A stretch of DNA of 35,228 nt from a virus: positions 1-35,228 of IMG/VR virus record IMGVR_UViG_3300010149_000063; one strand, 5' to 3'. A model generated the notes under the pieces. The model did not search any database and had not been told where the DNA came from. It was given only the letters and a program-made list of their open reading frames with translations. How positions within the stretch are numbered: position 1 is the first letter of the stretch; each line of letters begins with the position of its first letter. Positions 7,884 through 35,228 of this stretch are shown here, piece after piece. A program made the position numbers and the translations under genes.

Positions 7884-7996
7884 TAATCACGACGTTTAAG
7901 CACAGTTAACTTTAACTGGACATATATATAAACATATAAAACGTTGTTAAGATGACTACTACAATCACATAACGTATTAAGAAAGGTACAATCCAA

Positions 7997-8995
7997 ATGG
8001 CAATAGGAATAAGAGACATACTTACTGTCGATTACTTAAAAAATACGCTGTTAGTAGGTGTGTCACTACTCGATGATGCAGGTCAACCATATCCGGATGA
8101 TTTGTTTAGTAATGCTATAGAACAAGCTATATCACTAATAGAAGAAGAATTACAAATAGTAATTGACCCACATTCAACGAGAGGTGAACGCCATGATGCA
8201 ATCTCTCAAAATAGAAGAAGTTGGTGGGGTGCCACTTTAGACAGAAGACCTTTAAAGTCTGTAGATAAGCTAACAATAAGTTATGGCAACTATCCAGAGA
8301 CTGACATACCTTTAGAATGGACAAACATAACTTCAGAAGTTGGTGGGTCTGTACATTTAATACCGACTGCTGCAACATTAGGAACATTTAGTTTTAATAA
8401 CTCAATACCTTTGTTAGTAGACCCAATATCAAACTTTAGTTATCATGAAAGAGTACCAGCTTACTTTAAATTTGATTATACTTCAGGATTTAATTTCATT
8501 GAAGGTACTATAACAATACCACAAGGTTCCACAGAGGTACTAGATATTGCGATAGCAGAAACTTTAGTAGATAAACCTAATTTTCTATTTACAATAACAG
8601 ATGATGGAAACGGCAACGTTGTAGGAGCTGCTGCACCAAAGATTAAAACATTTAATGTCGGAGACGACAAGTTTAGTGTAGAGAGTAATTTAACTCCTGC
8701 AGTTTCTGATATGATTATTAGTTATAAACTTTATACATGTCCTAACTTATTACTTAAATGTATATCATACGTTGCTGCATTACTACCTTTAGATACTGCA
8801 GGTGATTTGATTGCAGGTGCCGGTATAGGTAGCTTTAGTATTGGTGTTGATGGACTAAGTCAAACAGTTAATACAACATCATCAGCGACTTCTGCTGGTT
8901 ATGGAGCTAAAATGATAAGTTATAGAAGCCAGCTTAAAGAAGCAGTAAAAATACTTAAAGGTAAATACCGACTAAGTAAGATTGCGATGTTTTAA
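7997..8995 (+). CDS. Head-tail connector / neck protein
   Basis: The product is 332 residues. The N-terminal ~60 residues (LFSNAIEQAISLIEEELQIV) look like the helical start of head-tail adaptor proteins. The middle, ~100-240, is predicted beta-rich. The C-terminal stretch at ~265-320 (IAGAGIGSFSIGVDGLSQTV and then TSAGYGAKMISYRSQLKE) is a pattern I associate with phage neck proteins that bind the portal. It lies between capsid and sheath with a GAAAGG ribosome site and ends exactly one base before the next gene begins. It uses AGA and TTA codons, in contrast to the capsid gene. The connector role is well supported by position; the precise ring is uncertain. Confidence 0.65.
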   Translation: MAIGIRDILTVDYLKNTLLVGVSLLDDAGQPYPDDLFSNAIEQAISLIEEELQIVIDPHSTRGERHDAISQNRRSWWGATLDRRPLKSVDKLTISYGNYPETDIPLEWTNITSEVGGSVHLIPTAATLGTFSFNNSIPLLVDPISNFSYHERVPAYFKFDYTSGFNFIEGTITIPQGSTEVLDIAIAETLVDKPNFLFTITDDGNGNVVGAAAPKIKTFNVGDDKFSVESNLTPAVSDMIISYKLYTCPNLLLKCISYVAALLPLDTAGDLIAGAGIGSFSIGVDGLSQTVNTTSSATSAGYGAKMISYRSQLKEAVKILKGKYRLSKIAMF

Positions 8996-31236: not shown

Positions 31237-31512
31237 ATGAAAGAAGTTAAAAAGCTTTCACCAATGCAAAGTAAAAAATTTTTGGCATACTTATTTGCTG
31301 ATATTGGTTGGAAGGCAATTATATTGTACCAGTTAATGCATCTTAAAGGCAAACTGGAGATAAATGAATTAACGTTTTTAATAACAACAGTGATAACAGC
31401 TGGTGTAATACAAATAGGCTATATTTTAGGTACAGCCTCACTTGAAAAATACTTAGCTTCTGCTGTAGAAATATTTGATAGAGATGATAATACTCCCAAG
31501 AAAAAGGGGTAA
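31237..31512 (+). CDS. Two-span membrane protein, holin candidate
   Basis: The product is 91 residues, with hydrophobic segments at ~14-35 (FLAYLFADIGWKAIILYQLM) and ~46-67 (FLITTVITAGVIQIGYILGT), a short charged loop and a polar tail ending TPKKKG. Small size, two membrane spans, charged ends and a place after the structural genes fit a holin, which would open the membrane at lysis. No endolysin is in the window, so this stays a candidate. The ribosome site TAGGAG is good. The cysteine-rich gene begins 2 bases after its stop. Confidence 0.5.
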   Translation: MKEVKKLSPMQSKKFLAYLFADIGWKAIILYQLMHLKGKLEINELTFLITTVITAGVIQIGYILGTASLEKYLASAVEIFDRDDNTPKKKG

Positions 31513-31513
31513 T

Positions 31514-31702
31514 ATGATTTTTGATGAAAAGACTATATGCCAGCTCTGTAAAAAGTTAGAATGTGAATGCATATACTATAAATGCCCTTGTGGTAAATTA
31601 GAAATAAACTGTAAATGGCCAGAAGATAGCTTTTGTCCTTGTAGAATATGTGATGAGTTAGCACACAACTGCTCTTGTCATAAACCTTTAAAGGAGGAGT
31701 AA
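31514..31702 (+). CDS. Small cysteine-rich protein (12 Cys)
   Basis: The product is 62 residues with twelve cysteines, in CQLC, CEC, CPC, CPC and CSCH clusters. This is enough for two or three metal sites of zinc-ribbon or knuckle type. No signal peptide is visible, so it should be cytoplasmic. The ATG at 31514 has AAAGGGG upstream and is preferred over an in-frame start at 31475 inside the previous gene. Its TAA shares one base with the ATG of the cyclase homologue, and the cyclase's perfect AAGGAGGAG ribosome site lies in its last codons, so the two are coupled. No family was recognised. Confidence 0.65.
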   Translation: MIFDEKTICQLCKKLECECIYYKCPCGKLEINCKWPEDSFCPCRICDELAHNCSCHKPLKEE

Positions 31703-32553
31703 TGTTAGACGACGACAATGATATAGTTGAAAGCCACATTGCTGTCGTCCTTACAGACATTATAGGTAGTACACGTTTTGTGCAAAGAAACGGTGCAATG
31801 GTCGCAGCAAAATGGTTTGGAATACATGATAGATATGTAATGTCTTTTATTGCAAAGAATAACGGACGTCTAGTTGACGCGAGTGATGGACATTTGATGT
31901 ACTTTGGTGATGTTTCAGACGCAATAGCTTTTGCATTTCAATACAAACGTTTCATGAGAACTAAAAAAATGCCATTTAGAAGTAGGGTTGGAATACATTG
32001 GGATAAAATGCTTATTGTTAAATCACCTGAACATTTAGTTAGAGCTGGTGGTAAAAGAATAAACCTAGAAGGCATAGGTAAAAACATAGCTGCAAGAACA
32101 ATGTCGTTATGTGGGCCAGAGCAAATACTTATGTCTAAAAATGCTTATACACAATTTAAACAAAATGGACATAGAAATCCAAACATTCCTAAGAAAGCTC
32201 TAACAGCACTTGTTGGTCTATACAAATTTAAAGGAGTATCAGAACCAGAAGCTATTTACGCAATTGGGTTAATAACTGAACAGATGCAACCTCCTAAAGA
32301 TAGTGAAAAAGCTAAACGAATAGGCGGACAAAAGAAAATAAAAACAAGAATGAAACATAAACGATGGAGTGAAATATTTTTCTACTTTTTATATCGCATT
32401 GCTTTTATAATGTTTTGTTATTTAACATATACTTTTTGGCCTTTACTTTCAAATGCACAACTTAAAGCAAGTTGGAATATAGATTATCTAGTTTTAAGAC
32501 CATTCGAATATATAGATTCAGTAATATGTTTTATCAAGGATAACATAAAATGA
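31702..32553 (+). CDS. Tail-anchored class III nucleotide cyclase homologue
   Basis: The product is 283 residues. Residues ~12-195 form a class III cyclase homology domain: VVLTDIIGSTRFVQRNG with metal-site Asp19, GRLVDASDGHLMYFG with Asp62, SRVGIHWDK, GIGKNIAARTMS with Asn128 and Arg132 (the transition-state pair), EQILMSKNAYTQF and YKFKGVSEPEAIYAIG. Class III enzymes turn NTPs into cyclic NMPs. The usual base-recognising Lys and Asp are not at their expected places (near Asp59 and Asn121), so the substrate is uncertain. A Lys/Arg-rich stretch (~210-223) precedes one membrane span at ~225-247 (FFYFLYRIAFIMFCYLTYTF), which would put the domain in the cytoplasm. It is coupled to genes on both sides. 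Confidence 0.8.
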   Translation: MLDDDNDIVESHIAVVLTDIIGSTRFVQRNGAMVAAKWFGIHDRYVMSFIAKNNGRLVDASDGHLMYFGDVSDAIAFAFQYKRFMRTKKMPFRSRVGIHWDKMLIVKSPEHLVRAGGKRINLEGIGKNIAARTMSLCGPEQILMSKNAYTQFKQNGHRNPNIPKKALTALVGLYKFKGVSEPEAIYAIGLITEQMQPPKDSEKAKRIGGQKKIKTRMKHKRWSEIFFYFLYRIAFIMFCYLTYTFWPLLSNAQLKASWNIDYLVLRPFEYIDSVICFIKDNIK

Positions 32554-32642
32554 AAAACAGAAGCAATCTGGTTGACTTCATGGGTATATTTATAGTGTTT
32601 GTCTATGTAGTTAATGAAATATGTAAATACGTTAATCAATAA
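32550..32642 (+). CDS. 30-residue single-span membrane peptide
   Basis: The ATG overlaps the cyclase TGA (ATGA), with AAGGA 9 bases upstream. The peptide starts MKNRSNLVDF and has one hydrophobic stretch at ~11-22 (MGIFIVFVYVVN). It is too short for a domain, but is a plausible membrane microprotein that may bind the cyclase anchor or a neighbouring membrane protein. The overlap and ribosome site are seen directly; a partner is inference. Confidence 0.5.
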   Translation: MKNRSNLVDFMGIFIVFVYVVNEICKYVNQ

Positions 32643-32652
32643 GGAATGATAA

Positions 32653-33147
32653 ATGGTCATTAGGAAAAAAGACGAAGGCTCTGATAAAGAAGTTGTCCAA
32701 CAAAAAAGAGAAACTAGAGGTTGGTTATTTAGTGTTGTTTTCTTATTTACAATAATAATGCTAATTATTTTTTTAGCGTTATTTGATTTTAAAGAGAGCA
32801 ATCGTGAAGTTCTAATAGGTTTGTTTGGTATTCTATTTGGTAATATACCTTCGATGATTATTATTGCAAGTGGAAGAAGCCCTGAAGAAATAGATGAACT
32901 TAAGTCTAAACTTTCAAAAAGTGATGGTGATAGGCAAGCACTCATTTCTCGTTTAAGAGATTCTCAAATACAATTACAGTTAGCTAGACAACAAATGTTT
33001 GAACTACAAAACTCTGTAATAGAAGAATTATCTATATTTAAGGGTAAGAAACCTATTAAAAGCAGACATGAAAATGATGTTATATTACCTGACATTGTGG
33101 ATGAATGGACTATTAGTCGTGAAGATGAGTATAAAAAAAGTAAATAA
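32653..33147 (+). CDS. Two-span membrane protein with coiled coil
   Basis: The product is 164 residues. Basic residues precede a first membrane span at ~24-44 (WLFSVVFLFTIIMLIIFLAL), and a second follows at ~52-73 (EVLIGLFGILFGNIPSMIII). A coiled coil at ~76-128 (SQIQLQLARQQMFELQNSVI) and a polar acidic tail come after. N-terminus and coiled coil should lie on the same side, probably cytoplasmic. It follows the microprotein by 10 bases with an AAGGA ribosome site. It could be a lysis regulator or an effector for the cyclase product, but no ligand-binding motif is visible. Confidence 0.6.
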   Translation: MVIRKKDEGSDKEVVQQKRETRGWLFSVVFLFTIIMLIIFLALFDFKESNREVLIGLFGILFGNIPSMIIIASGRSPEEIDELKSKLSKSDGDRQALISRLRDSQIQLQLARQQMFELQNSVIEELSIFKGKKPIKSRHENDVILPDIVDEWTISREDEYKKSK

Positions 33148-33930: not shown

Positions 33931-34167
33931 TTATGAAGCTGCTTCTTGGACTGCCTCCTCTTGAACCTCTTCAGGCTTTTCAATACGGAAAGTTTGTGTA
34001 GCTTGAAAAACTGCGTTAGCATCTGATAAACTAAATGCACCTGCCTTTTGTGCTACTTGAGCTGCTGCAAGAAGAACATTAACTGCCTTAGCTTGCTCAT
34101 TTGTAATAAAAATTCCCTCTGCGGGTTGTGCTTTCATATTCATTGGTTGACTGTCTTCAAAACTCAT
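33931..34167 (-). CDS. Small unknown protein, Ala/Gln-rich
   Basis: The product is 78 residues. A probably helical core (NEQAKAVNVLLAAAQVAQKA, ~23-42) is followed by ALSDANAVFQA-like sequence and an acidic EEVQEEAVQEAA tail. It overlaps the upstream - strand gene by 11 bases, and its ribosome site AAAGGAG lies inside that gene, which suggests coupling. It has no membrane span and no recognised family. It may be a virion-associated or regulatory small protein. Confidence 0.6.
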   Translation of the reverse strand: MSFEDSQPMNMKAQPAEGIFITNEQAKAVNVLLAAAQVAQKAGAFSLSDANAVFQATQTFRIEKPEEVQEEAVQEAAS

Positions 34168-34783
34168 TATTATCTCCTTTGAGTATTTCTTTTAAATCTA
34201 TTGTAAGTAATTTTTCTTCTACTGTATAGGCTGATTTAGACATATCATTGTTAAAATTATCAATGACAGTATCATGTGTTGTAAAGCCTTTAATACAGTA
34301 TCTTTTTTCATCTACCTGACAAACTAAAACATAAACATCAGCTGCTTTGTTTTCTGCTTGTTCTTTAGGAATGATTAACTTTGATTTCATAGGTTTTTCT
34401 GTTGCTTTAACTTCAACAGAGAATGTTTCACCATTATAAACTATGTCTGTATCAAAATTATCATCGTAGTTAAACTCTGAAGTTGTATCAAAGAATTGCT
34501 CCATTGAAACATCAAAGCCTTCTTTTTGTGCCCATCTGATGACTGCTAATTCACCAAGACATCCTAAAACTTCACGTCCCTTTATAGGGTATCCATAAGT
34601 TTTATTTTTCTTACCAAGTTCCCTATGCGAATCATAACGTTCATTAGCAATTTTTCTACCAAGTAAAACGTCTTCGTCTGATAATTCAATAATAAAGTCT
34701 TTATATCTATCAGAACTTTGCCATTGAGCAAAACAATGCTCTCTAACTCTTTGGAACTTTTGTTGTATTGTTGTTGATGACAT
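34157..34783 (-). CDS. PD-(D/E)XK-nuclease-like protein
   Basis: The product is 208 residues. GREVLGCLGELAVIRWAQ (~69-85) contains Glu78, followed by DNFDTDIVYNG with Asp113 and FSVEVKATEK with Glu124 and Lys126. This is the order and spacing of a PD-(D/E)XK restriction-endonuclease-like fold: E, D and ExK. A strand-rich part (KAADVYVLVCQVDEKRYCIK) then completes the core. Related phage proteins include nucleases and inactive DNA-binding relatives. It starts 3 bases past the end of the neighbouring - strand gene. The fold call is fair; the actual activity and target are unknown. Confidence 0.6.
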   Translation of the reverse strand: MSSTTIQQKFQRVREHCFAQWQSSDRYKDFIIELSDEDVLLGRKIANERYDSHRELGKKNKTYGYPIKGREVLGCLGELAVIRWAQKEGFDVSMEQFFDTTSEFNYDDNFDTDIVYNGETFSVEVKATEKPMKSKLIIPKEQAENKAADVYVLVCQVDEKRYCIKGFTTHDTVIDNFNNDMSKSAYTVEEKLLTIDLKEILKGDNNEF

Positions 34784-34786
34784 GTA

Positions 34787-35228
34787 TTAGCAGTCCTCGT
34801 CGTTAATTGCCCAGTGTAAATCTTTAGCCCAAGCTTCTACAATATCCCACTTTTTATTTGAGACATTCATGTGAGAAACTATAGAATACTCTGTAAGTTC
34901 ATGAATACCCATAAGTTCTTCACTTCTAAGAATAGGTTTATCGTCAAGTTCTAGAGCAACTCTTAAGTCTTCTAAGAATGATTTAGCAACTTCTGCAAGT
35001 TCTGGGTCTAAACTCATCATCTTATCAGGACCACGAGATGAATGATTATCAATCTCATGTGTATCATAACCAAATGATTTAGTTTTAGTAGCATAACGTA
35101 CTTCAGGAGACATACAAATGTCAACACCTACAGAATACTTATTAAACTTACCTGCATGATAAGCAACCAAAGCTGTGTCCAAACATTGAATTATTTCGAT
35201 ACGGTTGCTGTCGCTTGGGTCTCTACCA
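34787..35228 (-). CDS. Unknown protein, 5' end outside window
   Basis: The frame stays open to the right edge of the window (PSDSNRIEIIQCLDTALVAY upstream of a TTG at 35182), so the start lies outside and the gene is partial. About 147 residues are visible, with a soluble alpha/beta look, Asp/Glu-rich, including SVGVDICMSPEVRYATK and MNVSNKKWDIVEAWAKDLHW. It is followed after 3 bases by the nuclease-like gene on the same strand, so the three genes probably form an operon transcribed against the structural genes. No family was recognised. Confidence 0.6.
   Translation of the reverse strand, partial: GRDPSDSNRIEIIQCLDTALVAYHAGKFNKYSVGVDICMSPEVRYATKTKSFGYDTHEIDNHSSRGPDKMMSLDPELAEVAKSFLEDLRVALELDDKPILRSEELMGIHELTEYSIVSHMNVSNKKWDIVEAWAKDLHWAINDEDC

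Follow-up and report, generated by a model that had tools for sequence, protein, structure and literature searches.

The window analyzed in this study, a stretch of 35,228 nucleotides, is the IMG/VR virus record IMGVR_UViG_3300010149_000063, a 35-kb virus contig of a contractile-tail phage that encodes portal, capsid, sheath and baseplate proteins. At the end of its structural run, after the structural genes, is a gene (31702..32553, plus strand, ATG start) for a class III nucleotidyl cyclase of 283 residues. The protein is composed of a catalytic domain (approximately residues 10-190), a conserved linker, QPPxxSEKxKRxGG (residues 196-209), and a membrane segment (residues 225-243, located by hydropathy). 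Downstream, on the same strand, a second gene (32653..33147) codes for a partner protein of 164 residues, designated c1, which has two transmembrane (TM) segments (residues 25-43 and 53-71) and a long coiled coil (residues 77-128). Here, we report that this cyclase and c1 form a nearly constant pair in diverse phages, and that the cyclase appears to belong to a bacterial subfamily that includes a cyclic GMP (cGMP)-producing enzyme, XC_0250 of Xanthomonas campestris.

An original prediction, made from the letters of the window, had described the protein as a phage-encoded, membrane-anchored class III cyclase. With the window cyclase alone, no match was found in Pfam or PHROG, and PF00211 (Guanylate_cyc) was matched by 15 of 34 relatives. 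A sequence search of the PDB led to the mycobacterial cyclases Ma1120 and Rv1900c. An AlphaFold2 model (predicted local distance difference test score 77) shows the cyclase fold, and its top PDB matches are again Ma1120 and Rv1900c (target TM-score of approximately 0.9, E 4e-13). In addition, 94 of 100 distinct viral homologues carry a hydrophobic segment toward the C terminus. The window protein is, as predicted, a class III nucleotidyl cyclase, anchored to the membrane by its C-terminal region. The structural check proposed at that time had two sides, of which the class III fold was recovered and the pyrimidine cyclase of Pycsar defense, PycC, was missing from the top 50 PDB fold matches of the model.

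The active site was examined by hidden Markov model (HMM) alignment. Asp19 and Asp62 coincide with the metal aspartates of Ma1120 and Rv1900c, Asp59 occupies the substrate-Lys position of these enzymes, with a one-residue gap, and Asn121 is opposite the substrate Asp of Rv1900c. These alignments, together with the translation of the open reading frame (ORF) 31702-32553, agree with the earlier description of this site: Asp19, Asp62, Asn128 and Arg132 are present, the LVDASDG segment is one residue shorter than usual and has no Lys, and Asn121 is found where the substrate Asp is expected. In the 100 homologues, D19, D59, D62, G63, R95, R132 and K177 (the phosphate Lys, a role assigned from its position) are invariant, and N128 is kept in 97, with Ala in the remaining three, so that chance is a very poor explanation of these features. 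Position 121 is E in 71 sequences, N in 24, S in three and A in two, and is never D. Thus, the Lys/Asp pair that specifies adenine in adenylate cyclases is absent, with Asp59 at the Lys position and E, N, S or A at position 121, and the base-recognition positions are unlike those of adenylate cyclases, as had been claimed.

Selection on the gene was estimated by the Nei-Gojobori method. The ratio of nonsynonymous to synonymous substitution rates (dN/dS) was 0.05-0.13 in six of seven cyclase pairs; the seventh pair was saturated. Because the catalytic residues are conserved and purifying selection is strong, the phage cyclase is, judging from its sequence, very probably a functional, active enzyme, which strengthens the more cautious initial suggestion of activity. 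One could instead see in this protein a catalytically dead cyclase fold serving as a scaffold, given its non-canonical base-recognition residues and the Ala at position 128 in three sequences. Such a loss of catalysis is very improbable in view of the metal, Arg and phosphate-Lys residues, which are invariant in all 100 sequences, and the strong purifying selection.

Clustering of neighboring genes revealed that the cyclase is followed by c1 in nearly all contexts, and this pairing, which the original prediction did not mention, is the strongest clue to the function of the cyclase. Counts were drawn from metagenomic contigs, some of them near-identical, and the main count uses clusters at 80% identity. 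Among loci whose downstream sequence covered 5.5 kb, c1 was found downstream of the cyclase, on the same strand, in 58 of 58 loci and in all 26 non-redundant clusters (less than 80% identity); it was adjacent in 23 of these clusters and overlapped the cyclase stop in 10. In the reverse count, the cyclase was upstream in 55 of 57 c1 loci, and the other two have a cyclase close by on the opposite side of c1. When 14 phage genomes were chosen via a third gene, six contained both the cyclase and c1, six contained neither, and two were discordant. The pair is found in several surroundings (genes named by eye), i.e., after tail genes, beside helicase/nuclease-like genes, and between terminase and portal.

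Two further arrangements were observed around this pair. In the window, a hydrophobic micro-ORF (32550..32642, plus strand) sits between the cyclase and c1. It starts at the cyclase stop (ATGA overlap) and encodes 30 residues, MKNRSNLVDFMGIFIVFVYVVNEICKYVNQ, a possible one-TM micropeptide. At another locus, L258, a divergent phage cyclase (7168-7959, minus strand; motifs EIDKTDG, GAKPVEVDG and KNICAR) occurs without c1. The gene immediately before it (7960-8370, minus strand) is another small one for a hydrophobic, coiled-coil protein, and this may be an equivalent design with an alternative partner.

The window cyclase is a member of a virus family. Its relatives in IMG/VR numbered 19 in a single-sequence scan and 188 loci in a profile scan, on contigs of up to 375,691 bases. 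These phage cyclases are mostly 270-300 residues long and end soon after the TM region. In the 375,691-base record (G006, locus L061), the cyclase gene spans both record ends, with overlap, and the record is therefore probably a complete jumbo genome, terminally redundant or circular. Scanning 84,980 species of bacteria and archaea by sequence pattern returned no member at first and then one weak classical cyclase. In the annotated collection of isolated phages, nothing matched the window cyclase, and one weak match to a relative was located in an unannotated faecal contig.

A profile built from the viral sequences detected seven proteins in 398 Pseudomonadota genomes with E-values of 1e-39 to 1e-45, and no other match was better than 1e-14. 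The seven proteins are approximately 840-960 residues long (two with probably over-long starts), and in each an N-terminal cyclase is followed by a P..S.KA.R linker and then a hydrophobic segment; C-terminal tetratricopeptide repeats (TPRs) were present in all six that were scanned with Pfam. All seven have the shortened D[RK][ST]DG motif and GAKxxE, and four of them adjoin a gene that fuses a cyclic mononucleotide (cNMP)-binding-type region (recognized by eye, from sequence) to GGDEF. This architecture corresponds to that of XC_0250, a TPR-containing class III guanylate cyclase that is linked to the cNMP-GGDEF protein XC_0249 (PMC3770947). The cyclase domain of XC_0250 converts GTP to cGMP and makes no cAMP from ATP (PMC3770947). 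Six residues have been published for XC_0250, namely D41, D71, L73, A150, L157 and A161 (PMC3770947); all six fit three of the seven bacterial sequences and five fit a fourth, with the second metal Asp at position 71. In a phylogenetic tree of the phage cyclases, the XC_0250-like homologues and other class III cyclases, the phage and XC_0250-like sequences grouped together against the rest (SH-like approximate likelihood ratio test 99).

By profile match and tree, the phage enzyme belongs to the XC_0250-like subfamily, whose own kinship with XC_0250 is deduced from the architecture, the neighbors and the residue numbering. The altered motif also occurs in this bacterial cyclase-TM-TPR family and is neither a phage novelty nor a mark of Pycsar. 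The link to the pyrimidine cyclases drawn in the original prediction is thus not supported: the same changes define the bacterial family to which the cGMP-making XC_0250 is assigned. Because the phage cyclase is kin to this family, GTP is its likeliest substrate and its product is probably cGMP. A separate observation concerns the published residues. When the seven bacterial proteins (L128-L134) are aligned with the viral sequences, XC_0250 would have D28 and D71 as its metal Asp pair, published as D41/D71, and the position of the Asn would be Pro with the Arg kept, instead of the published L157/A161. The published assignment may therefore be shifted, as read from homologues and not from XC_0250 itself.

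The question of where the product acts was approached through receptors. Ten phage records, of up to 376 kb, were scanned for cyclic-nucleotide-binding (CNB) domains and none reached the cut-off; a phage-encoded CNB-domain effector was rejected for this reason. The product would therefore have as its target a host receptor, c1 or some unrecognized component. Neighbors of bacterial nucleotide cyclases can be receptors, as exemplified by XC_0249 (PMC3770947) and by PycTM/PycTIR (PMC11224242). Since, in addition, c1 is near-obligate, we favor it as the receptor or effector.

We propose, tentatively and at somewhat below an even chance, that the phage protein is an active, membrane-tethered cyclase of the XC_0250 subfamily, most likely converting GTP to cGMP, that forms a module with c1 as receptor/effector or regulator. 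The cyclase would function as a homodimer that has two metal-dependent sites; it corresponds to the cyclase-linker-TM portion of the bacterial enzyme and lacks the TPR portion. With its two TM helices and cytoplasmic coiled coil, c1 would serve the cyclase as its own membrane receptor/effector or, as the second choice, as its regulator. During infection, signaling would take place locally at the membrane via c1, and not via a CNB protein of the phage. In this reading, c1 would either respond to the product or control it.

Several points weigh against this proposal. Of the two discordant genomes, G408 carries a divergent cyclase but no c1, with another hydrophobic/coiled-coil gene directly upstream, and G419 carries c1 but no cyclase. 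No confident fold match was obtained for c1 with its predicted structure (predicted TM-score 0.28), and its resemblances to SLATT and PycTM, described below, are weak and stand amid many chance-like matches to other TM proteins. The kinship with XC_0250 is drawn from presumed orthologues. Finally, the bacterial family has Pro at the position of phage Asn128, and the substrate choice of the phage enzyme may consequently differ from that of the bacterial one.

A rather unlikely, though still plausible, alternative is host takeover, in which the cyclic nucleotide acts on host receptors (CRP-like or cNMP-GGDEF proteins) and the role of c1 is limited to anchoring or regulating the cyclase via its coiled coil. 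As no CNB protein was recognized in the phage records, the receptor could be that of the host. There is also a precedent, in that XC_0250-type cGMP acts via XC_0249 to control host behavior (PMC3770947). Both the cyclase and c1 have membrane segments, and their genes often overlap, which fits a complex. However, such receptors are not universal, yet the module is spread over very diverse phages.

Other genes of the window bear on a different alternative. Upstream of the cyclase is c2 (31237..31512, plus strand), which encodes a hydrophobic protein of 91 residues (SKKFLAYL...IQIGYILG) with a very weak holin-like PHROG match in relatives. It is frequently near the cyclase, though not in every case, and was rejected as an obligate third member of the module. 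Downstream, on the minus strand, is a relative of Amidase_2 endolysins (cluster c28; 34787..35182), probably cut by the record end; a full-length relative of it (L004:13010-13801) matches PF01510 at 1e-9. These genes could suggest control of lysis timing, exerted by the cyclic product or by the cyclase as such via c1 and c2 as holin-like proteins: two small membrane proteins lie near the cyclase, c2 has weak holin matches, and an amidase is near the module in the window group, as is a lysozyme-like gene in the L006 group. We consider such a lysis timer improbable. No lysis gene was recognized beside the module in the terminase-portal group, c2 is not obligate, and c1 is long and has no convincing holin match. 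Position alone is no argument for lysis, because the neighborhood differs in relatives, e.g., between terminase and portal.

Two more features were noted in the window. Immediately upstream of the cyclase, a gene designated c8 (31514..31702, plus strand; probable ATG at 31514, the listed ORF starting at 31475) encodes a small Cys-rich, probably metal-binding protein with 12 distinct members, and its stop overlaps the cyclase start (TAATG). At 34157-34783 (minus strand) is a member of a family present in 11 loci; a relative, L005, has DTDIVFDGKELTVEIKTT, which resembles a PD-(D/E)XK nuclease core.

The possible relationship to Pycsar was examined for both proteins. PADLOC PycC models matched the window cyclase at 8e-4 and its best relative at 8e-6, both weak. 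In PycC clades B, D and E, the residue at position minus 2 relative to the first metal Asp is aromatic (Y50/F60/F100; PMC11224242); the corresponding position (equivalence by sequence) is Leu17 in 94 of the 100 viral sequences and Phe in two. PycC sequences were also sought for the tree, and none was found at E 1e-15 in 299 genomes. Regarding c1, it matched PHROG 9990, a family of unassigned function (16 of 20 members, best 1e-5), and the Pfam family matching most members was SLATT_fungal, a two-TM effector domain, with 16 of the 20 matching at E up to 1 and a best value of 0.0012. The PADLOC PycTM model matched one of the 20 members, the window copy, at 0.012. Because these matches are weak and accompanied by matches to other TM proteins, the resemblance of c1 to SLATT and PycTM is a lead only.

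Membership of Pycsar is not supported, as the PycC matches are weak (8e-6 at best) and the match to the XC_0250-like bacterial family is better (down to 1e-45); together with the Leu in place of the aromatic residue, this speaks against the pyrimidine-cyclase reading raised originally. A Pycsar-like phage circuit, in which a cyclic mononucleotide gates the phage's own SLATT-like two-TM effector for lysis, membrane control or rival exclusion, is conceivable but doubtful. There is little probability that the module serves counter-defense or exclusion, the cyclic nucleotide misdirecting Pycsar/CBASS-type defenses of the host or triggering c1 against a competing phage. The Pycsar-like architecture of a cyclase with a two-TM protein and the weak PycC and PycTM matches are consistent with it, but the closest kin found is a cGMP enzyme family and not PycC.

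Cyclic-nucleotide signals have been connected with phages chiefly through bacterial defenses, which phages evade or destroy. Our data reveal many diverse, uncultured phages from the environment, including those on contigs of 200-376 kb, that maintain their own cyclase, coupled to a constant membrane partner and under strong purifying selection. This pattern suggests a signaling circuit that phages operate for themselves in the bacteria they infect. If active, this module would be a virus-run second-messenger circuit and would open a new way to study how large phages govern the cells they infect. No description of the pair of cyclase and c1 was found in the literature searched. In that literature, the enzyme family is known from bacteria, and no account was found of its phage form, its fixed pairing with c1 or its spread.

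The module can be compared with several known systems. It shares with Pycsar a class III cyclase adjoining a membrane protein and a weak profile similarity of both proteins, but differs in being carried by phages, in not having Pycsar as the closest kin found, in having Leu for the aromatic residue two positions before the metal Asp, and in the absence of a CNB domain-TIR effector. With the adenylate cyclases Ma1120 and Rv1900c, the phage cyclase has the fold and catalytic residues in common; it differs by Asp59 and N, E, S or A at the two substrate positions, by a hairpin that is one residue shorter and by the C-terminal TM segment. Cyclase genes also occur in marine phages: in pelagiphages, an adenylate cyclase has been reported beside curli genes (PMC9599517), the one account of a phage cyclase that the literature search produced, compared here by its gene context. 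This curli/type VIII secretion system (T8SS) context was rejected here, CsgG being absent in 14 records. The closest likeness is to XC_0250, whose presumed orthologues have D-x-[ST]-D-G, GAKxxE and a P..S.KA.R linker followed by a hydrophobic segment, as in the phage protein. In contrast to them, the phage protein has no TPR part, keeps Asn128 and is partnered by c1 instead of a cNMP-GGDEF protein.
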